A stretch of DNA of 42,945 bases from Acidobacteriota bacterium (GTDB lineage Bacteria > Acidobacteriota > Terriglobia > Acidiferrales > UBA7541): the NCBI GenBank assembly GCA_003154775.1, contig PMES01000077.1, positions 1,529-44,473 of the forward strand, read 5' to 3'. Below, piece by piece: positions 4,789 through 40,487 of this stretch. A program made the translations under genes and the position numbers. The notes beneath the pieces were generated by a model. It was given only the letters and a program-made list of their open reading frames with translations, ran no database searches and was not told where the DNA came from. Position 1 is the first letter of the stretch. Each line of letters opens with the position of its first letter.

Positions 4789-4810
4789 AATTGTCGGCGC
4801 GCCGACAATT
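4789..4810. repeat. Palindrome copy 1
   Basis: Perfect 22-bp palindrome, the core TGTCGGCGCGCCGACA extended to AATT at each side (AATTGTCGGCG plus its reverse complement). It lies in the spacer upstream of recO. Confidence 0.95.
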
Positions 4811-4966
4811 TTTGTGTCCCCCAGGCGCTTGATCCTCGCGGGCATGGCCCTTGTTTTCCACTCCATTTGTTTGCAAATCATTGCGATGTTCCGTGGTGTA
4901 TGGTAAGTAAGTAAGTCCTGCATGTGCGCGCAATGGACGCAGGTAACGCCTGTGCCGCAGTTCGTG

Positions 4967-4980
4967 GTCGGCGCGCCGAC
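4967..4980. repeat. Palindrome copy 2, abutting the recO start
   Basis: Core GTCGGCGCGCCGAC with altered flanks (GG left, AACC right). It ends 5 nt before the recO ATG, so it occupies the place where a ribosome-binding site would be expected. Confidence 0.9.
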
Positions 4981-4985
4981 AACCG

Positions 4986-5726
4986 ATGCCTGCCCGCGAA
5001 ACGGAAGCCATCATCCTGAAGACCTTCCCGCTGGGTGAGGCGGATCGCCTGGTCAGTTTCCTGGGACGTTCGTCGGGCCGCATGCGGGGTGTAGCCGCGG
5101 GCGCACGCCGCCTGAAGAACCGTTACGGCTCGACCCTGGAGCTGCTCTCGCACGCGCAGCTCTGGTATATCGAGCGCGAGACGCGCGACCTTGTACGCAT
5201 CCAGCAGGCCGAACTGCTCGAATCCTTCTACAAGGCCCAGAGCGATTACGGCCTCAGCACCGGCCTGGCGCTGGTCAGCGAAATCGCCGAGCAGGTTCTG
5301 CCCGAGCGGGAAGTGTCCGAGCCGATGTTCCGGCTGATCCTGCTGGCCGTGCGGGAAATCGAACGGCGCAACAGCGGGGCCCTGCCGCTGAGCTACTTCG
5401 CGTTCTGGACGGTGCGGCTGGCGGGCTGGCTGCCGCGCTTCAATGCCTGCGCCACGTGCGGCAAGCCCTTCGGGAAGCAACCGGCGTATCAGGCTGCGTC
5501 GCATCCCGGGCTGCTCTGCGAGGAGCATCGCCGCTCCGGCATGAAGCCGGTGTCGTTCGCGGGCAGGGAACTCGCGGAACGCTTTGCGGGAGAACGCCTG
5601 GACCGGTTCGATGCGGCAATCGAAGCGCTACCCGCGGTGAAGGAGTTGCGCGAAGCAGGATTGAATTGGATCGAGCATCACACCGAGCGGGAGTTGAAAA
5701 CTCGGCAACTTCTGGAGACGCCGTGA
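4986..5726 (+). CDS. recO: DNA repair protein RecO
   Basis: 246 aa cytoplasmic protein of the RecFOR pathway, which anneals DNA strands and helps load RecA onto SSB-coated single strands. It has the typical N-terminal OB fold (MPARETEAIILKTFPLGEAD, then GRMRGVAAGARRLKNRYG) and a helical C-terminal half with a partial zinc-finger pattern, Cys155, Cys158 and Cys178 (CATC ... LCEEH). Length matches the family. The ATG is at 4986, only 5 nt after palindrome copy 2, and no clear Shine-Dalgarno sequence is visible, which is unusual. glyQ follows after an 82-nt gap, an arrangement (recO-glyQ-glyS) known from several bacterial groups. Confidence 0.93.
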   Translation: MPARETEAIILKTFPLGEADRLVSFLGRSSGRMRGVAAGARRLKNRYGSTLELLSHAQLWYIERETRDLVRIQQAELLESFYKAQSDYGLSTGLALVSEIAEQVLPEREVSEPMFRLILLAVREIERRNSGALPLSYFAFWTVRLAGWLPRFNACATCGKPFGKQPAYQAASHPGLLCEEHRRSGMKPVSFAGRELAERFAGERLDRFDAAIEALPAVKELREAGLNWIEHHTERELKTRQLLETP

Positions 5727-5746
5727 GAGTGTCGTCCGGGGAAAAT

Positions 5747-5762
5747 TGTCGGCGCGCCGACA
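5747..5762. repeat. Palindrome copy 3
   Basis: TGTCGGCGCGCCGACA flanked by AAAAT and TTTTT, in the short recO-glyQ spacer. The A-rich/T-rich flanks give it a terminator-like look in both directions. Confidence 0.95.
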
Positions 5763-5808
5763 TTTTTCGCGCGGCAGCGGAAGTGAGTGATGAATTCGGA
5801 GAGACGCG

Positions 5809-6765
5809 TTGACAGTTAAAGCAAAACTTGAAGTGAAGCACAAAGGCTTGACCTTTCAAGACTTATTTCTAAAGCTGGCGCACTTCTGGGGAAAGCAGGG
5901 TTGCGTGCTGCAGCAGCCCTACGACATGGAAGTTGGCGCGGGCACGATGGCGCCGGAAACTTTTCTCCGCGTGCTCGGCCCTTCCCCGTATCGCGTTGCG
6001 TACGTGCAGCCGTCGCGGCGTCCCGCGGATGGGCGCTACGGCGAAAATCCCAACCGCCTGTATAAACATTTTCAGTATCAGGTGATCTTGAAGCCCGCGC
6101 CCGCGGAGATTCAGGACATGTACCTGAAGAGCCTGGAAGCCATCGGGATCGATCTTCGCGCGCACGATGTGCGTTTTGAAGAGGACAACTGGGAAGCGCC
6201 CACGCTGGGGGCTTGGGGAATTGGCTGGCAGGTGCTTTTGGATGGGCTGGAGATCACCCAGTTCACTTACTTTCAGCAGAGCGGCGGCATCGAGCTCGAC
6301 CCCATTTCGGTGGAGATCACGTATGGCCTGGAACGCATCTGCGCGTTCCTGCAGGATGTGGAGAGCGTGTACGAGATTCGCTGGACGGAGGACAAGAGTT
6401 ACGGCGACATCCGGCTTGCGGAAGAGCAGCAACTCTCGGAATACAGCTTTGACCGGAGCGACGCGCAGGCGCTACGGGCTGAGTTTGAATTGCACGAGAA
6501 GGAATCGAGGGAGCTGCTGGAAGGGTGGAAGCACCTGGAGGGAAATGTCGGCGCGCCGACAATCGAGCGCATCCGCTACCCCTTGCTGGCAGCGTATGAC
6601 CACTGCCTGAAGTGCTCGCACCTGTTCAATCTGATGGATGCGCGCGGGGTGATTTCGACGACGGAGCGGGCGGCGCTGATGGCGCGGGTGCGCACGCTGG
6701 CGTGCCGGACGGCGAGTGCGTACCTGGAGCAGAGCGCCGAAGCGAAGAGTGGGGTGCGGGGATGA
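5809..6765 (+). CDS. glyQ: Glycine--tRNA ligase alpha subunit, carrying an in-frame palindrome
   Basis: 318 aa alpha chain of the (alpha2 beta2) bacterial glycyl-tRNA synthetase, which activates glycine with ATP. The conserved opening [20 protein letters not shown], then [38 protein letters not shown] and [17 protein letters not shown] are diagnostic. The start is TTG at 5809, chosen because GGAGAG lies at ideal spacing just upstream. Odd feature: residues 246-252 (NVGAPTI) are encoded by a full palindrome copy in the linker before [18 protein letters not shown], where the E. coli protein as I recall it is about ten residues shorter. The gene remains open and all core motifs are intact, so it is probably functional. 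glyS lies 700 nt downstream. Confidence 0.96.
6546..6561. repeat. Palindrome copy 4, inside glyQ
   Basis: TGTCGGCGCGCCGACA within the glyQ reading frame, translated as NVGAPT. See the glyQ entry and the finding on in-frame insertion. Confidence 0.95.
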
Positions 6766-6795
6766 GGGGCGGCAGGGAAGAGCGACGGGGCGAAA

Positions 6796-6815
6796 AATGT
6801 CGGCGCGCCGACATT
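6796..6815. repeat. Palindrome copy 5
   Basis: 20-bp perfect palindrome (AAT + core + ATT). The downstream flank CCCGAATTGGAACGC is shared with copy 8 at 7308, and the upstream GGGGCGAAA flank is shared with several other copies. Confidence 0.95.
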
Positions 6816-6901
6816 CCCGAATTGGAACGCGGCTGGCGGGGTGGCGGGCTGAGCGGCAGTGGCAACATTTGCGAGCGCGGGATGGATGTCGGGGGCAAAA
6901 A

Positions 6902-6917
6902 TGTCGGCGCGCCGACA
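6902..6917. repeat. Palindrome copy 6
   Basis: TGTCGGCGCGCCGACA preceded by GGGGGCAAAAA and followed by ATATTATTTTTGGAA. Confidence 0.95.
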
Positions 6918-7040
6918 ATATTATTTTTGGAATCCGGAGTTCAGTGCGCGAGCGCGGTTGATCGTATCGGTTTCTTGGCGGGCCAGGCGGAGTTTTGCGG
7001 TGTGTATGCTGGCCGAACTAAAGTTCGGCGCCTACAGGGG

Positions 7041-7072
7041 CTGGAAAATGTCGGCGCGCCGACATTTTCCAG
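7041..7072. repeat. Palindrome copy 7, 32-bp perfect
   Basis: The core is extended to a perfect 32-bp palindrome: left arm CTGGAAAATGTCGGCG, right arm its exact reverse complement. As RNA this would be a 16-bp (or about 14-bp with a small loop) hairpin. It is the longest copy in the window. Confidence 0.97.
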
Positions 7073-7307
7073 GGACAGCCGACGACCCTCACGAAGCTCA
7101 CTCAGGAACCATGTCCGCTCGCACCTTCTCGCCGTGCCCCGTCATTTCGAGGGCGGTTTTTGCCCGAGAAATCCCTCGGCTGCTTTTAGCGGGGATGGAA
7201 GAGAGATTCATCGCACAAAAAACGCGCGATGGAAAACCGCACCTCACTCCGCAGACTCCGTTCGGAATGACGGAGGTTTGGTCGGCGCGCTCGTGCCGGG
7301 GCAAAAT

Positions 7308-7323
7308 TGTCGGCGCGCCGACA
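7308..7323. repeat. Palindrome copy 8
   Basis: TGTCGGCGCGCCGACA with upstream GGGGCAAAAT and downstream TTCCCGAAATGGAACGCG, nearly the same flank as copy 5. Confidence 0.95.
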
Positions 7324-7409
7324 TTCCCGAAATGGAACGCGACTTACGGGGTAGCCGCAGGAGCGCCGACGTTATGGTTTTGACTGGGAAGACGGACGTC
7401 GGGGCGCGA

Positions 7410-7431
7410 AATTGTCGGCGCGCCGACAATT
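7410..7431. repeat. Palindrome copy 9
   Basis: 22-bp perfect palindrome with AATT ends, preceded by GGGGCGCGA and followed by CCAAAAAATGGAA, 34 nt before the glyS ATG. Confidence 0.95.
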
Positions 7432-7465
7432 CCAAAAAATGGAAGTTTGTGTTTGAGGTGGTTGG

Positions 7466-9673
7466 ATGAGGGCTGCGACAAAGACATCTCTGAAGAAGGC
7501 GCGGGCTGGGGCGGGGAAGGCGGGCGCTTCTTCGAAACCCGGCAAACGCGTGGAGCTGCTTTTCGAAATTGGGGTGGAGGAGATTCCCGCCGGGATGTTG
7601 CCGCGCGCCGTGGGCGAGTTGAAAACGATTCTGGAGAAGCACCTTGCCGCGGAGAGCCTGAACGAAGGCGTCGCCGTGGAAACCTTTGGCGGGCCGCGGC
7701 GCCTGACCGCCTGGGTGCGCGGTCTGATCGCCAAGCAGGCGGACGTGGAGAATGAAGTGACCGGGCCGCCGAAGTCGGTGGCCTACGACAATGCCGGGGC
7801 GCCGACAAGAGCGGCGGTGAGTTTCGCGGAGAAGCAGGGCGTGGCGCTCCACGATCTCCTGATCGTGAAGACTCCCAAGGGCGAGTACATCGCCGCGAAA
7901 GTCGTGAAGCGCGGGCGCACGGCCCACGAACTCCTCAGCGAAATCCTGCCGCGGGTGATCCACGACCTTTCCTGGCCGCGCACGATGACCTGGACGGGCC
8001 TGGAGGGCGCGCGTTTCATCCGCCCGGTGCGTTGGCTGGTGGGCGTGCTCGGTGGCAAGCCGCTGAAGTTTTCCTTTGGGGGAATCACCGCCGGAGATAT
8101 TACAGTGGGGCACCGCTTCCTGGGCAAAGCGGAGATTCGCGTGCGCGATTTTGCGGACTATGAGAAGAAGCTGCTCGCCAACGGCGTGATTGTGCGCCCC
8201 GCCAAGCGCATGGAGAAAATCAGCCGGGAGCTGGAGTCACACATCAAGCGCGCCGGCTCCGGCATTCGGCTCCATAAGGATCCGGACCTTCTGCAATTGG
8301 TGACCTATCTCAACGAATATCCCCATGTCATCGAGGGCACCTTCGACGGGGAGTTCCTGAATCTACCGGACGAAATCCTCATCACCGTGATGCGCGGCCA
8401 TCAAAAATACTTCGCCATGGAAAATTCGGCCGGGGAATTGGTGAACACTTTTTTGGCCGTGATCAATCTGGCCAAAGATCCGCAGGGCTTGGTCTGCATC
8501 GGACATCGCAATGTGCTGCGCGCTCGCTTCACGGATGCGCGGTTTTTCTGGGAGTCCGACCAGAAGTGCAAACTGGCCGACTATTTGCCGAAGCTGCAGA
8601 GGGTCACCTACGAATCGCGCCTGGGCAGCTACCACGACAAGGTTGAGCGCATGCGGGCCATTGCGCGGTGGCTGGCGGAGCAGTGGTTCAACCTGGGCAT
8701 GGTGCAGGCGCACGTGGCCGATGCGGACCGCGCCGCCGAGTTGGCGAAGTGCGACCTGGCCACGGAAATGGTGCGGGAGTTCACGGAATTGCAGGGCGTC
8801 GTGGGCGGGCTGTACGCAAGGGCCCAGGGCGAAGCGGAAGATGTGGCCGATGCGGTGTACGACCACTACCTGCCGGTGGGGCTTGATGATCCCATCCCGC
8901 GGAATCTGACCGGGTGCGCGGTGGCGCTGGCGGACAAGATCGATTCCATCGTGGGCTGCTTTAGCGCGGGGGTGATTCCCACGGGCTCGAGCGATCCGTA
9001 TGCGTTGCGCCGCGCCGCGCTGGGCATCGTAAAGATCATCCTTGATCGCAAATTGCCCGTATCATTGTCGTTGACGATTGGCGCCGCAGCGAAGGCGCTG
9101 CTCACGCACCCGCCGAAGAAGGCGGTGACACCGGCGCAGGAAGCGCAGGTTCTGGAGTTCCTCCTGGACCGCGCGCGGTTCGTGCTGCGGGAAAAGCATG
9201 GCTATGCGTACGACGAGGTGAACGCGGTTTTCCGCGCGGGGAGCGAGGACCTGGTGGACGTGGAGAAGCGTCTGCGCGCGCTGAAGGCGGTGCGCAAGAC
9301 GAAGAACTTCGAGCCGCTGGCGGTGTCGTTCAAGCGCATCCGCAAAATCCTGGAGAAGGCCAACCTTCCGGCGGAGACGGCGCAGCATGTGAATGTGGAT
9401 TTGTTCGAGAAGGATGCGGAGAAGGCGTTGTATGCCGCGGTGCGCAAGGCGGCGGGGAAGGTGAGCGAGGACAAGCGCGCGGGGAAGTATCAGGAGGCGC
9501 TGGACGAGATTGCGGGATTGCGGAAAGTGGTGGACCAGTTTTTTGTGGAAGTAATGGTGATGGCGGAGGACGAGGCAGTGCGGAAGAACCGCCTGGCGCT
9601 GCTGGCGGAGTTGCTGCGGGAGTTCACCACGATTGCGGATTTTAGCGAGCTTGGCGGGGAAGAGCGGAAGTAG
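7466..9673 (+). CDS. glyS: Glycine--tRNA ligase beta subunit
   Basis: 735 aa beta chain that binds tRNA-Gly and completes the heterotetrameric enzyme with GlyQ. Diagnostic segments are ELLFEIGVEEIPAGMLPRA near the start, GPPKSVAYDNAG, WPRTMTWTG...FIRPVRWLVG, HRFLG, and VMRGHQKYFAM, followed by the HD-like central region (TYESRLGSYHDKVER) and a C-terminal anticodon-binding domain with DLFEKDAEKALY. The ATG at 7466 is used; residues 1-25 are an extra Lys/Ala-rich leader, and a later start cannot be excluded. A near-match to the palindrome (14 of 16, at 7792-7807) falls on a natively conserved GxPTxAA motif and is probably coincidence. Confidence 0.96.
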   Translation: MRAATKTSLKKARAGAGKAGASSKPGKRVELLFEIGVEEIPAGMLPRAVGELKTILEKHLAAESLNEGVAVETFGGPRRLTAWVRGLIAKQADVENEVTGPPKSVAYDNAGAPTRAAVSFAEKQGVALHDLLIVKTPKGEYIAAKVVKRGRTAHELLSEILPRVIHDLSWPRTMTWTGLEGARFIRPVRWLVGVLGGKPLKFSFGGITAGDITVGHRFLGKAEIRVRDFADYEKKLLANGVIVRPAKRMEKISRELESHIKRAGSGIRLHKDPDLLQLVTYLNEYPHVIEGTFDGEFLNLPDEILITVMRGHQKYFAMENSAGELVNTFLAVINLAKDPQGLVCIGHRNVLRARFTDARFFWESDQKCKLADYLPKLQRVTYESRLGSYHDKVERMRAIARWLAEQWFNLGMVQAHVADADRAAELAKCDLATEMVREFTELQGVVGGLYARAQGEAEDVADAVYDHYLPVGLDDPIPRNLTGCAVALADKIDSIVGCFSAGVIPTGSSDPYALRRAALGIVKIILDRKLPVSLSLTIGAAAKALLTHPPKKAVTPAQEAQVLEFLLDRARFVLREKHGYAYDEVNAVFRAGSEDLVDVEKRLRALKAVRKTKNFEPLAVSFKRIRKILEKANLPAETAQHVNVDLFEKDAEKALYAAVRKAAGKVSEDKRAGKYQEALDEIAGLRKVVDQFFVEVMVMAEDEAVRKNRLALLAELLREFTTIADFSELGGEERK

Positions 9674-10045
9674 TGCGAGGAGAGTTTACAGTTCACAGTT
9701 GACAGTTTCGGAGAATTGCAAGAGGGACGGTAACAGCCCGACCGGGTCGGGGCGGGCGCCGGTCACAGAGGACAGAAAGAGGGAATGCGGATGACTCAGA
9801 GGTCGCAGAGAAGAGCAGAGAGATTCCTCACTTCGCAGACTCCGTTCGGAATGACGGGTTGTGAGATGTGAGCGAGACAGATTGGTTAGTCATCCATATA
9901 AAGTTTTACTTTAGGTATTGAGTTACGAGTTTTGCGGCAGTTTTCTTATGAAAATTGTCGGCGCGCCGACATTATGCACTCCAATCCCAAATGAGTGCGA
10001 TGCGTAGCGCGCCAGTAACCGCAGTGAAAAACAAGAGAGGGTACC
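9674..10045. repeat. Intergenic composite repeat upstream of ppdK
   Basis: Contains AGTTTACAGTTCACAGTTG at about 9684, a CCCGACCGGGTCGGG hairpin at about 9739-9753, a CACAGAG/CGCAGAG array, the AGATTCCTCACTTCGCAGAC...GGAATGACGG repeat at about 9819-9857, and palindrome copy 10. An AT-rich stretch (9890-9950, with CATATAAAG) could hold the ppdK promoter, but no clear -35 box is seen. Confidence 0.65.
9956..9971. repeat. Palindrome copy 10
   Basis: TGTCGGCGCGCCGACA preceded by AAAAT and followed by TTATG, 74 nt before the ppdK start. It is the last full copy in the window. Confidence 0.95.
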
Positions 10046-12751
10046 GTGAAAAAGTGGGTCTATTTCTTTGGTGCAGGAAAAGCGGAAGGCGACGGCGAAT
10101 GGCGCGATCTGCTCGGCGGCAAGGGAGCAGGTTTGGCCGAGATGACCAAAATCGGTCTGCCCGTCCCCGCGGGTTTCACCATCTCGACGGAAGCCTGCGA
10201 TCACTTCTACAAGAACAACAAGAAGTACCCGGCGGAACTCAAGAAGCAGGTGATTGACAACGTCGCCAGGCTGGAAAAGGTGACGAAGAAAAAGCTCGGC
10301 GATCCCGACAACCCGCTGCTGGTGAGCGTGCGTTCCGGCTCGGCGCGCTCGATGCCGGGCATGATGGAGACGATCCTGAACCTGGGCTTGAATGACAAAT
10401 CCGTGGAGGGCATCGCCAAGGTGACCGGCAACGAGCGTTTTGCCTACGACGCGTATCGGCGCTTCGTGCAGATGTTTTCCACCGTGGCGATGGGCATGCC
10501 CAAGGAAGACCTGGAGCACAAGCTGCGGGCGATGAGGCAGCGGCTGGGCGTGAAGGAAGATACCGCAGTGCCGGCCAGCGGCTGGAAAGAACTGGTCGGG
10601 GAGTACAAGGCCTACTACTTGGAAAAGGCCGGACAGCCATTTCCGGAAGATCCTCTGGAGCAGTTGTGGGGCGCAATTGGCGCGGTGTTTGGATCGTGGA
10701 TGGCGGAAAAGGCAGTCACCTACCGCCGGGTGGAAAAGATCACCGGGCTGCTGGGCACAGCGGTGAACGTGCAGCAGATGGTGTTCGGGAACACCGGCGA
10801 CAACTCCGGGACGGGCGTGTGCTTTACACGCGACCCGAGTTCCGGCGAGAAGATTTTCTACGGCGATTATCTGACCAACGCACAGGGCGAAGACGTCGTG
10901 GCGGGCATACGCACGCCGGTACACCTGAGCGAACTGGCAAAGATCATGCCGAAGGCATACGTGCAGCTCGAGGGGGTTCGAGTAACACTTGAGAAGCACT
11001 ACCGCGACATGCAGGACATGGAGTTCACGCTGGAGGAAGGCACGCTGTACATGCTGCAGACGCGCACCGGTAAGCGCACGCCCGCGGCAACCTTCCGCAT
11101 CGCAATGGACATGGCCAACGAGAAGCTGATCACGAAGGAAGAAGCGATGCTGCGCATCAAGCCGGAAGACATCGAGCGGCTGTTTTATCCGGTGATTGAC
11201 AGCAAGGTGGACCGCAAGACGCTGGAGTCGAAGATACTGGCGCACGGGATTAACGCGGTGCCCGGCGCGGCCGTCGGGAAGATGTGCTTCTCCGCGAACG
11301 AGACGGAAGAGTGGGCCGCAAGGGGAGAGAAGGTCATCCTGGTGCGGCGGGAAACCAGCCCGGAAGATGTGGGCGGCATGGCGGTGGCGCAGGGCATCCT
11401 GACGGCTACGGGCGGCAAGACGAGTCACGCGGCCGTGGTGGCGCGCGGCTGGGGCAAGTGCTGCGTGGCCGGGGCGGAAACCCTGGACATCGACTACAAG
11501 ACCAAGATCATGACCGATGGGAAGAGCGGCAAATCGCTGAAAGAAGGCGACTGGATCACGCTGGACGGCAGCGAAGGCATCGTGTACGAGGGGAAAATGC
11601 CGCTGGTCACGCCGGAATTGCCGAAGGCGTACTACACGATCATAAAGTGGGCCGACGAGATCCGGCACTTGGGGGTGCGCACAAATGCGGATACGCCGCA
11701 GGATGCGCGGAAGGCTCTTGAATTCGGCGCGGAGGGCATTGGGCTGGTCCGCACCGAGCATATGTTCTTCACCGACTTCGAGCAGCCGGAGAAGAGCCAC
11801 GAGCGGCAACTGGCGATTCAAGAGATGATCCTGGCGAACGAGAAGGAGACCCGCGTCAAGGCTCTGGACAAGCTGTTGCCGTTCCAGCGCCGCGACTTCA
11901 TCGGCATCTTTAAGGTGATGGATGGTTTTCCGGTTACGATTCGCCTGATCGATCCGCCGCTGCACGAGTTCGTGCCGCACGAGCACGCCAAGCAAGCGGA
12001 ACTGGCCAAGGAACTGGGCATTTCCGTGGAAACCGTGGAGCGCCGCGTGGCGCAATTGCACGAAGCCAACCCCATGCTGGGACACCGCGGGTGTCGCCTG
12101 ACCATCACGTATCCGGAAATTCTGGAGATGCAGGTGAGGGCGATCATCGAAGCGGCGATCGAATGCCACAAGGCGAAGGTTAAAGTAATACCTGAGATCA
12201 TGATTCCGCTCACTCTGGACAAGAAGGAGCTGGGAATCCTGGTGGATGCGACACGCCGCGTTGCGGATGACCTCATCAAGAAGGCCGGTGTGAAGCTGCA
12301 CTATATGGTGGGCACGATGATTGAGTTGCCGCGCGCCGCGTTGCTTGCCGACGAGATCGCCGAAGTGGCGGAATTCTTCTCGTTCGGCACCAACGACCTG
12401 ACGCAGACGACCATGGGGCTCTCCCGCGACGATGCGGGGCGCTTCCTGCCCGACTACGTGGACGAAAAGAAGGCCGCCGTATTCCACGGCGACCCGTTCC
12501 AGACGCTGGATATCAAGGGCGTGGGAATGTTGATAAAGTGGGCGATCGAAAAGGGGCGCGAGACGCGTCCAAAGCTGGAGGTGGGCATCTGCGGAGAACA
12601 CGGCGGCGATGCCGAAAGCGTGAAGTTCTGCCATCAGGTTGGCATGGACTACGTGAGCGCTTCGCCGTTCCGCGTGCCGATAGCGAGGTTGGCGGCGGCG
12701 CAAGCGGTGGTCGAAGACAAGCAGAAGGCCAAGAGCAAGAAGAAGAAGTAG
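10046..12751 (+). CDS. ppdK: Pyruvate, phosphate dikinase
   Basis: 901 aa enzyme interconverting pyruvate, ATP and phosphate with PEP, AMP and pyrophosphate in the cytoplasm. Domain order: N-terminal ATP-grasp nucleotide-binding part (residues about 1-350, with LLGGKGAGLAEMTKIGLPVPAGFTI and GNTGDNSGTGVCFTRDPSSG), the swivelling phosphohistidine domain (GGKTSHAAVVARG, catalytic His461), and the C-terminal PEP/pyruvate TIM barrel (FGAEGIGLVRTEHMFF, FFSFGTNDLTQTTMG, GICGEHGGD). Length is as expected. The start is GTG at 10046, preceded by AGAGAGG. The C-terminus ends in a Lys-rich tail. It stands alone after glyS, with no regulatory PPDK kinase gene nearby. Confidence 0.96.
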   Translation: MKKWVYFFGAGKAEGDGEWRDLLGGKGAGLAEMTKIGLPVPAGFTISTEACDHFYKNNKKYPAELKKQVIDNVARLEKVTKKKLGDPDNPLLVSVRSGSARSMPGMMETILNLGLNDKSVEGIAKVTGNERFAYDAYRRFVQMFSTVAMGMPKEDLEHKLRAMRQRLGVKEDTAVPASGWKELVGEYKAYYLEKAGQPFPEDPLEQLWGAIGAVFGSWMAEKAVTYRRVEKITGLLGTAVNVQQMVFGNTGDNSGTGVCFTRDPSSGEKIFYGDYLTNAQGEDVVAGIRTPVHLSELAKIMPKAYVQLEGVRVTLEKHYRDMQDMEFTLEEGTLYMLQTRTGKRTPAATFRIAMDMANEKLITKEEAMLRIKPEDIERLFYPVIDSKVDRKTLESKILAHGINAVPGAAVGKMCFSANETEEWAARGEKVILVRRETSPEDVGGMAVAQGILTATGGKTSHAAVVARGWGKCCVAGAETLDIDYKTKIMTDGKSGKSLKEGDWITLDGSEGIVYEGKMPLVTPELPKAYYTIIKWADEIRHLGVRTNADTPQDARKALEFGAEGIGLVRTEHMFFTDFEQPEKSHERQLAIQEMILANEKETRVKALDKLLPFQRRDFIGIFKVMDGFPVTIRLIDPPLHEFVPHEHAKQAELAKELGISVETVERRVAQLHEANPMLGHRGCRLTITYPEILEMQVRAIIEAAIECHKAKVKVIPEIMIPLTLDKKELGILVDATRRVADDLIKKAGVKLHYMVGTMIELPRAALLADEIAEVAEFFSFGTNDLTQTTMGLSRDDAGRFLPDYVDEKKAAVFHGDPFQTLDIKGVGMLIKWAIEKGRETRPKLEVGICGEHGGDAESVKFCHQVGMDYVSASPFRVPIARLAAAQAVVEDKQKAKSKKKK

Positions 12752-39981: not shown

Positions 39982-40487
39982 CGAGATGCCCCTTTTTATT
40001 CCTTTTCACCTTTCTAGCATGTGGAGGGAGTCCCCTACTACTGTACGAAGGTACCTTGTGGCGAAGTAGCAATGGGGGGAAGGAGAGGTATAAGTTTTCC
40101 GTTATCAGTCTTAAGTTTCGGAAAAGGCGAAGATAAGGGCTTTAACGCGGAGAATAACCCGACACCGGGACGGGGTGGGCGGCGGGCAGGTCCTACAAGA
40201 GCTAGACAACCCAAGAAAGAGCCTCAGGCCTGAAGGCCTGAGCTACAAAGGCGGACACAAGAGAAAGGCCGCAGGGCTCCCGCCAGAAGGCGGGGGCTGA
40301 AAAGAGCGCGGGCTCGCCCTGCGCGACATGAGGAGGGAACGGTGGGTGGGAGATGAATTACAGTTTGTCGGCGCGCATTCAGGCGCAAAAGCGGCGGCGA
40401 GCCGCCGCACTCCAAAATGGGCGACCCACAGGGGCGCGTGGGGCGGTGTGGTAGAATGAAGGATTAATTTAGTTGGAAAGTAGCGGC
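39982..40487. repeat. Intergenic region with several cassettes and a palindrome half-site
   Basis: AAGTTTTCCGTTATCAGTCT, an AACGCGGAGAATAACCCGACA remnant, CAGGCCTGAAGGCCTGAG hairpin with CTACAAAG (about 40215-40240), TTGTCGGCGCGC (40365-40376, half of the palindrome), and GCGGCGGC/GCCGCCGC hairpin (40391-40408) followed by ACTCCAAAAT. No gene is seen. Confidence 0.65.
40365..40376. repeat. Palindrome half-site
   Basis: TTGTCGGCGCGC followed by ATTC instead of the second arm; the only trace of the palindrome that I see after 10 kb. Confidence 0.6.

Follow-up and report, generated by a model that had tools for sequence, protein, structure and literature searches.

ParABS systems are known as machines that segregate replication origins, and the consensus of the canonical chromosomal parS site is TGTTTCACGTGAAACA. 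In bacteria with secondary chromosomes or megaplasmids (Burkholderia, Deinococcus and Thermus), the ParB of each replicon has its own site. How the terminus is handled in bacteria without MatP is, to our knowledge, largely open. In Escherichia coli, the terminus (Ter) macrodomain contains 23 matS sites in 800 kb, according to PMC3330122. Here we analysed a stretch of 42,945 nucleotides (the window) from an Acidobacteriota bacterium, in which ten copies of a 16-bp palindrome, TGTCGGCGCGCCGACA, are found within 5.2 kb of the recO-glyQ-glyS-ppdK region. Our analyses indicate that this palindrome, whose core is GTCGGCnnGCCGAC, is most likely a parS-type site belonging to a second ParABS of the chromosome (parA2-parB2-parS2), located at the terminus in Acidobacteriota and opposite the ordinary ParABS.

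An initial annotation, made from the letters of the window alone, had described the ten-copy cluster, its A/T-rich flanks and a half-site near 40365. These observations were borne out, with coordinates shifted by up to 8 bases: nine copies are exact, one (GGTCGGCGCGCCGACA) carries a single mismatch, and the only further matches at up to three mismatches were a two-mismatch copy in glyS (7792) and the half-site, which lies at 40366 and has three mismatches. None of 100 dinucleotide shuffles of the window reached 12 matches at this threshold (mean 0.59, maximum 3). The flanks are A/T-rich and roughly symmetrical in most window copies, several being of the AAAAT...ATTTT type, and the cluster is the densest of TGTCGGCGCGCCGACA encountered in the analysis. 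The genome-wide count that the annotation had proposed was then available for the window's own genome (G000; 4.63 Mb, 150 contigs). It yielded 34 exact copies, 6 with one mismatch and 8 with two, while the pattern in reverse, used as a control, had no exact match and 1 at up to two mismatches, indicating that the copy number is far beyond chance and that the exact form dominates.

The same genome carries five classical parS sites (TTCCACGTGRAA) within 0.3 kb, between rsmG and parA (genes read by eye), and the ordinary ParB (ParB1) adjoins this cluster. Since TGTCGGCGCGCCGACA differs from the parS consensus and the GTTCCACGTGRAAC cluster is separate and beside parA, the palindrome was ruled out as canonical parS, in agreement with the reservation made in the initial annotation. 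A motif match in rsmG beside parS was also rejected as a parS2 site, because it overlaps a conserved RsmG stretch and appears, by eye, to be coding-driven.

The palindrome is linked to a second ParB. A ParB_N search in 16 chosen genomes revealed a protein of about 280 amino acids (ParB2) in 11 of the 13 carrying the core motif; the other two were G058 and G048, the latter with a short second ParB of another type, and the three motif-free genomes (G044, G050 and G054) had no ParB2. We profiled 296 Acidobacteriota genomes, G000 excluded, calling ParB2 at a best_E of 1e-50 or lower, with a clear gap to the ParB1-level matches, which scored about 1e-35 or worse. The motif was present in 153 of 168 ParB2 genomes versus 41 of the 128 others (Mann-Whitney p 1e-25, for genomes that are not independent), with mean counts of 3.45 and 0.65, respectively. 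Among the matches listed, 31 genomes appeared for both ParB2 and sites (G285, G102, G078 and G254 appeared for sites only); a site lay within 2.5 kb of parB2 in 27 of them and within 50 kb in 29. The 29 best-scoring parB2 loci, which are not a random sample, comprised 26 with a site within 1.5 kb at up to one mismatch and 23 with an intact core. Their positions recurred: inside parB2 at +511/517, just past it at +820-843, and upstream of it either by about 1.48 kb (three genomes, family f41) or by 830-950 bp, which, judged by gene length, is just in front of parA2. In families f11 and f32, no sampled genome gave a ParB2-level score (best_E at ParB1 level or none), which suggests loss of the second system.

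In a scan of GTDB, at least 110 contig stretches contained the exact 16-mer. Among the 110 listed, 30 carried parA2- and parB2-like genes, adjoining each other in every case, two had a parA2 match only, 14 contained genes of the recO-ppdK locus and 64 had neither. Acidobacteriota groups were named for 39 of the 80 titled stretches listed. Four of the 30 ParAB-bearing stretches encoded weak homologues (33-40% identity) with the 16-mer within a few kb, on contigs labelled Cloacimonadota (L119), Deltaproteobacteria (L171), Methanofastidiosum (L179) and Beijerinckiaceae (L164); these are perhaps independent uses of one site. Viral contigs contained 12 stretches with one copy each, about the chance level by a rough estimate.

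ParB2 presents the domains of a ParB protein. The G010 protein contains ParB_N and HTH_ParB (PF02195, 91.2 bits; PF17762, 55 bits) and matched only ParB families in Pfam, with no MatP family, the MatP gene itself not having been sought in these genomes. ParB2 of both G010 and G000 scored above the TIGR00180 cut-off, and in both genomes a ParA-like gene lies upstream and overlaps parB2 (L252 and L251, respectively). GERR and ENxQR are cytidine triphosphate (CTP)-binding motifs of ParB, and both were retained in the ParB2 alignments, the exception being one of 17 rows (L141, ENLHR). An AlphaFold2 model of the ParB2 homologue L159, named as acidobacterial, adopted a ParB fold (mean predicted local distance difference test 84.6); its best match was Caulobacter ParB, with a template modelling score of 0.84 by target length and 0.58 by query, and KorB and Noc were also among the fold neighbours. 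The ParB2 clade was apart from ParB1 in the tree (100/99), for which the program warned of long branches; P2_G048 was omitted from it and row P1_L235 is actually the ParB2 of G021, so two changes per group were reported, not one. A plasmid origin of ParB2 was considered and rejected, since the plasmid collection held no record with at least 60% identity; among the matches listed, twelve rows reached 31-40%. In G045, parB2 is immediately followed by a predicted gene for an N6/N4 DNA methyltransferase (L255, 6436-7377).

The DNA contacts of ParB2 were mapped with the residue roles given in PMC7383237, where R173 of ParB contacts base G1. R173 is kept in ParB2 and G1 is likewise G in the new motif. 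Position 178 (Caulobacter ParB numbering), which is N in both ParB and Noc, is E in ParB2 in 11 of 11 rows of alignment A1 and 17 of 17 rows of alignment A2. The latter comprised 17 of 20 sequences, as L124 and L128 were dropped for an internal stop and L199 was omitted; further partial ParB2 fragments were excluded. ParB2 of G000 has T179, N184 and S201, without a clear counterpart of R204, and the Noc specificity residues Q173, K179, K184 and R201 are unmatched, the aligned residues being R, T, N and S. ParB2 proteins differ from one another at positions 184 and 201, where the alignment is gapped and, at 201, uncertain. Altogether, the contact residues fit neither ParB (RTAG) nor Noc (QKKR).

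Canonical ParABS is located near oriC, and parB2, in the genomes measured, is not. Assuming circular contigs, the distance between parB1 and parB2 was 0.47 of the circle in G112, 0.43 in G173, 0.49 in G230 and 0.50 in the larger contig of G145 (four genera; G171 and G211 were left out). Four genomes from three genera showed a plus-to-minus change of GC skew at or near parB2; the skew was calculated from sampled stretches and was noisy in single samples elsewhere. The switch was at about 1.33 Mb in G145 (parB2 at 1.30 Mb), where five sites between 1.260 and 1.341 Mb straddle it, between 1.92 and 1.95 Mb in G156 (parB2 at 1.915 Mb), between 0.61 and 0.80 Mb in G112 (parB2 at 0.815) and between 0.21 and 0.39 Mb in G230 (parB2 at 0.400). 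Among three genomes of a single genus, G156 and G259 but not G230 had sites extending over about 0.9 Mb around parB2: all 14 sites of G156 were within 565 kb of the gene (p about 1e-8) and 10 of the 11 of G259 within 480 kb (p 2e-6), both p-values being too small because the interval was set after the sites were known. As for the window's relatives, parB2 shares a contig with the sites in G010, G014, G023 and G045, 21-54 kb from the nearest cluster site, while in G021 the gene and the cluster are on different contigs. From the former we infer that the recO-ppdK locus of G000 lies near the terminus. Three two-contig genomes carry a further ParB on the second contig, as for a second replicon (G145 C2:49560, G171 C2:914 and G211 C2:726678). 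A 12-kb sample of G145 (L308, C1:100001-112000) is possibly a foreign island, its G+C content being 33% against values near 60% in the rest of the genome.

Absence from close relatives, which the initial annotation had named as evidence against a special role, was not what we found. The exact 16-mer was present in 14 of 61 genomes (G000 included), with 0 to 34 copies each, and six genus relatives with one exact copy (G003, G004, G009, G010, G017 and G024) carried it in glyS or in the glyS-ppdK gap. Sites at up to three mismatches occurred in 31 of 33 fetched loci, against an expectation from shuffles of about 0.15 per 11 kb; G047 and G051 had none in the fetched recO-ppdK locus. Within the genus they recurred about 20 bp before recO, at about +209 in glyQ, at about +290 and +1060 in glyS and in the glyS-ppdK gap. 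Genome-wide mapping of GTCGGCnnGCCGAC in ten relatives located 42 of 51 sites within 20 kb of this locus, with three to six core sites per genome in nine and seven in one. Synonymous codons retained the core at glyQ RRPADG in 17 of 24 genomes (expected 0.11), at glyS VGAPT in 20 of 23 (expected 0.64) and at glyS CRLADY in 18 of 22 (expected 0.16), where expectations are based on the codon usage of glyQ and glyS within the respective genome and are uncorrected for shared ancestry. In G000, all three coding sites have decayed, and several intergenic sites and copy 4 in glyQ are present instead. Copy 4 (within 6540-6565) inserts six in-frame residues, NVGAPT, in GlyQ, at a place that is a gap in 22 of 24 relatives and holds six different residues in G020 and G021. 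This replacement of decayed coding sites by intergenic and glyQ copies is a turnover of sites and suggests that their presence at the locus is selected for.

In the mechanism that we propose, a ParB2 dimer would recognise the 16-bp palindrome via its altered helix-turn-helix. Because the GERR and ENxQR motifs are kept, ParB2 may be loaded at the site as a CTP-dependent clamp and then spread, which would cover the terminus with a patch of nucleoprotein. Late in the cell cycle, ParA2 would move, position or separate the two sister patches. The recO-glyQ-glyS-ppdK cluster of the window would represent one ParB2 loading zone. On balance, we lean towards the broader picture of a single bacterial chromosome on which the origin and the terminus each have a dedicated ParABS centromere. 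The terminus would be actively partitioned, ancestrally so in Acidobacteriota, with a ParA/ParB motor in the role of MatP/matS and with parS2 sites placed in essential coding genes and spread by repeats in one clade.

Several observations weigh against a terminus ParABS with the palindrome as its site. Binding by ParB2, the CTP clamp, the action of ParA2 and the role at the terminus are deduced from sequences and models. In G000, parB2 is on a separate 8.6-kb contig, and only 9 of the 34 exact copies are inside the 5.2 kb, the other 25 being on other contigs, 20 of them less than 700 bp from the non-coding repeat module TGTTTTTGCG. Eleven genomes of the window's class had no intact core in the fetched surroundings of parB2, and where gene and sites share a contig the nearest cluster sites are 21-54 kb away. 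The phylum profile includes 15 of 168 ParB2 genomes without an exact core and 10 of 128 genomes with at least three cores and no ParB2, G058 with three sites among the latter; the control-pattern mean also differs (1.60 with ParB2 versus 1.08 without). Around the terminus, 6 of 8 sites of G230 are in the half around parB2, loosely centred (p 0.14), one of two sites in G112 and two of four in G173 lie beside parB2 with the rest far away, and the GC skew of G173 is too weak for judgement. Control-pattern matches numbered 3 in G156, 1 in G259, 5 in G230 (versus 8 sites), 2 in G112 and 2 in G173. Finally, shared ancestry bears on the codon expectations, and the glyQ RRPADG and glyS CRLADY sites overlap conserved residues.

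Other functions could be considered for the palindrome. As a transcription-factor operator without a partition role, bound by a KorB-like ParB2 or another regulator, it would control recO-glyQS-ppdK and parA2B2. ParB autoregulation at parA promoters is generally known, sites stand just upstream of recO and, at 830-950 bp before parB2, upstream of parA2, and KorB is a fold neighbour of ParB2. An operator would not be expected at recurrent positions inside glyQ, glyS and parB2, nor over nearly 1 Mb around parB2 (G156 and G259), nor ten times in a single operon as in the window, and the ParA-like gene that overlaps parB2 is also at odds with it, so we regard this explanation as unlikely. We give hardly any credence to bidirectional intrinsic terminators, that is, GC-rich hairpins flanked by A and T tracts: copies in the coding sequences of glyQ, glyS and parB2, relatives' flanks that are mostly not A/T tracts and the unexplained linkage with parB2 or the terminus outweigh the AAAAT...ATTTT-type flanks of several window copies and the intergenic position of the majority.

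The mobile palindrome that the initial annotation had listed among its options stands in part. The proximity of 20 of the 25 outside copies to the repeat module means that, in the window's clade, the palindrome has also been multiplied along with repeats. The module is usually preceded by a C-rich tract, and 10 of the 25 copies form five pairs spaced 208-399 bp apart. As a full explanation, an element multiplied within repeats and lacking a host function would also account for the 34 exact versus 6 one-mismatch copies, the range from 0 to 34 copies within one genus and the six extra in-frame residues of the glyQ copy. It is nevertheless very improbable, given that the nine exact copies in the window all lie away from the module, that ten relatives have only three to seven cores each, mostly (42 of 51) at or near the locus and with coding sites conserved at the codon level, and that linkage to parB2 is phylum-wide; of the annotation's options, the parS-like, chromosome-organising site is better supported, through its tie to the second ParB. 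A Noc-like division inhibitor, whose sites would mark DNA to exclude the division ring, is improbable as well, in spite of the similarity of ParB2 to Noc in fold and profile and of the 16-bp sites that Noc likewise uses, according to PMC8429893. The NCBIfam Noc model TIGR04285 has a cut-off of 315 bits, which the ParB2 scores of 144.8 and 149.7 bits do not reach, and parB2 is accompanied by a ParA-like gene that overlaps it. As far as we know, the terminus is free of Noc sites, the reverse of the distribution seen here.

Table 1. Palindrome copies and their host genes in the window
Feature	Coordinates	Strand	Remarks
Palindrome copy 1, exact	4792..4807		Upstream of recO
Palindrome copy 2, one mismatch	4966..4981		End 4 bp 5′ of the recO ATG (4986); recO-upstream place recurrent in genus relatives
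recO, site-cluster host gene	4986..5726	+	PF11967/PF02565
Palindrome copy 3, exact	5747..5762		recO-glyQ gap
glyQ, glycyl-tRNA synthetase alpha	5809..6765	+	PF02091
Palindrome copy 4, exact	6546..6561		Within glyQ, in frame, encodes NVGAPT
Palindrome copy 5, exact	6798..6813		glyQ-glyS gap
Palindrome copy 6, exact	6902..6917		glyQ-glyS gap
Palindrome copy 7, exact	7049..7064		glyQ-glyS gap
Palindrome copy 8, exact	7308..7323		glyQ-glyS gap
Palindrome copy 9, exact	7413..7428		glyQ-glyS gap
glyS, glycyl-tRNA synthetase beta	7466..9673	+	PF02092
Decayed site, two mismatches	7792..7807		glyS place where 20/23 genus relatives retain GTCGGCnnGCCGAC
Palindrome copy 10, exact	9956..9971		glyS-ppdK gap; place recurrent in relatives
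ppdK, pyruvate phosphate dikinase, downstream boundary	10046..12751	+	PF01326/PF02896

The features of the locus are collected in Table 1; a rhomboid gene on the minus strand belongs to the same neighbourhood as recO, glyQ, glyS and ppdK. The glyQ-glyS gap measures about 700 bp in the window and is short in most relatives. Related stretches (CGCAGACTCCGTTCGGAATGACGG), recognised by eye, occupy 7240-7280 and 9820-9860, in two gaps of one operon. On other G000 contigs (L029, L031, L034, L036, L038 and L041), composite non-coding repeats containing C-rich tracts and TGTTTTTGCG bear the palindrome singly or in pairs, and in several of them the right end, GTACTAGTTTCGAAACTGGTAC, resembles a hairpin. 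Rfam gave no match at the gathering threshold for the six repeat-bearing loci searched or for the window.

A literature search by title and beginning of abstract returned no terminus ParABS and no Acidobacteria parS; most subscription papers and all preprints were outside its scope, so the novelty is provisional. If the proposal is correct, active segregation of the terminus becomes directly testable through a phylum-wide second ParABS with its own site, the ParB/Noc family gains a third DNA-contact code, and unfinished Acidobacteriota genomes acquire sequence markers for the terminus. Compared with secondary-replicon ParABS, the ParB2 system shares the separate site for each ParB, but here both systems are on one chromosome and plasmid matches, among those listed, reach only 31-40%. 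With Noc and its binding sites (NBS) in Bacillus it has in common a 16-bp site and a ParB-fold paralogue whose DNA contacts are shifted; the contacts, however, are unlike those of ParB (RTAG) and Noc (QKKR) and their shared N178, the sites are at the terminus and a ParA gene is present. The wide scatter of sites around parB2, over about 0.9 Mb, in G156 (14 of 14) and G259 (10 of 11) is reminiscent of the MatP/matS arrangement of the E. coli Ter macrodomain. ParB2 differs from MatP in being a ParB with a ParA partner, the site sequence is not that of matS, and parB2-linked sites are few and tightly clustered in other lineages and only loosely centred in G230. Chromosomal ParABS (Spo0J/ParB and parS) likewise combines a ParA-like ATPase and a ParB_N/HTH_ParB protein in one operon, and each genome has several palindromic sites of 14-16 bp that are often near or within the par operon. 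In contrast to it, the ParB2 system is the second on one chromosome, has another site sequence and other helix-turn-helix contacts, and is placed at the terminus instead of the origin, alongside the canonical ParABS.

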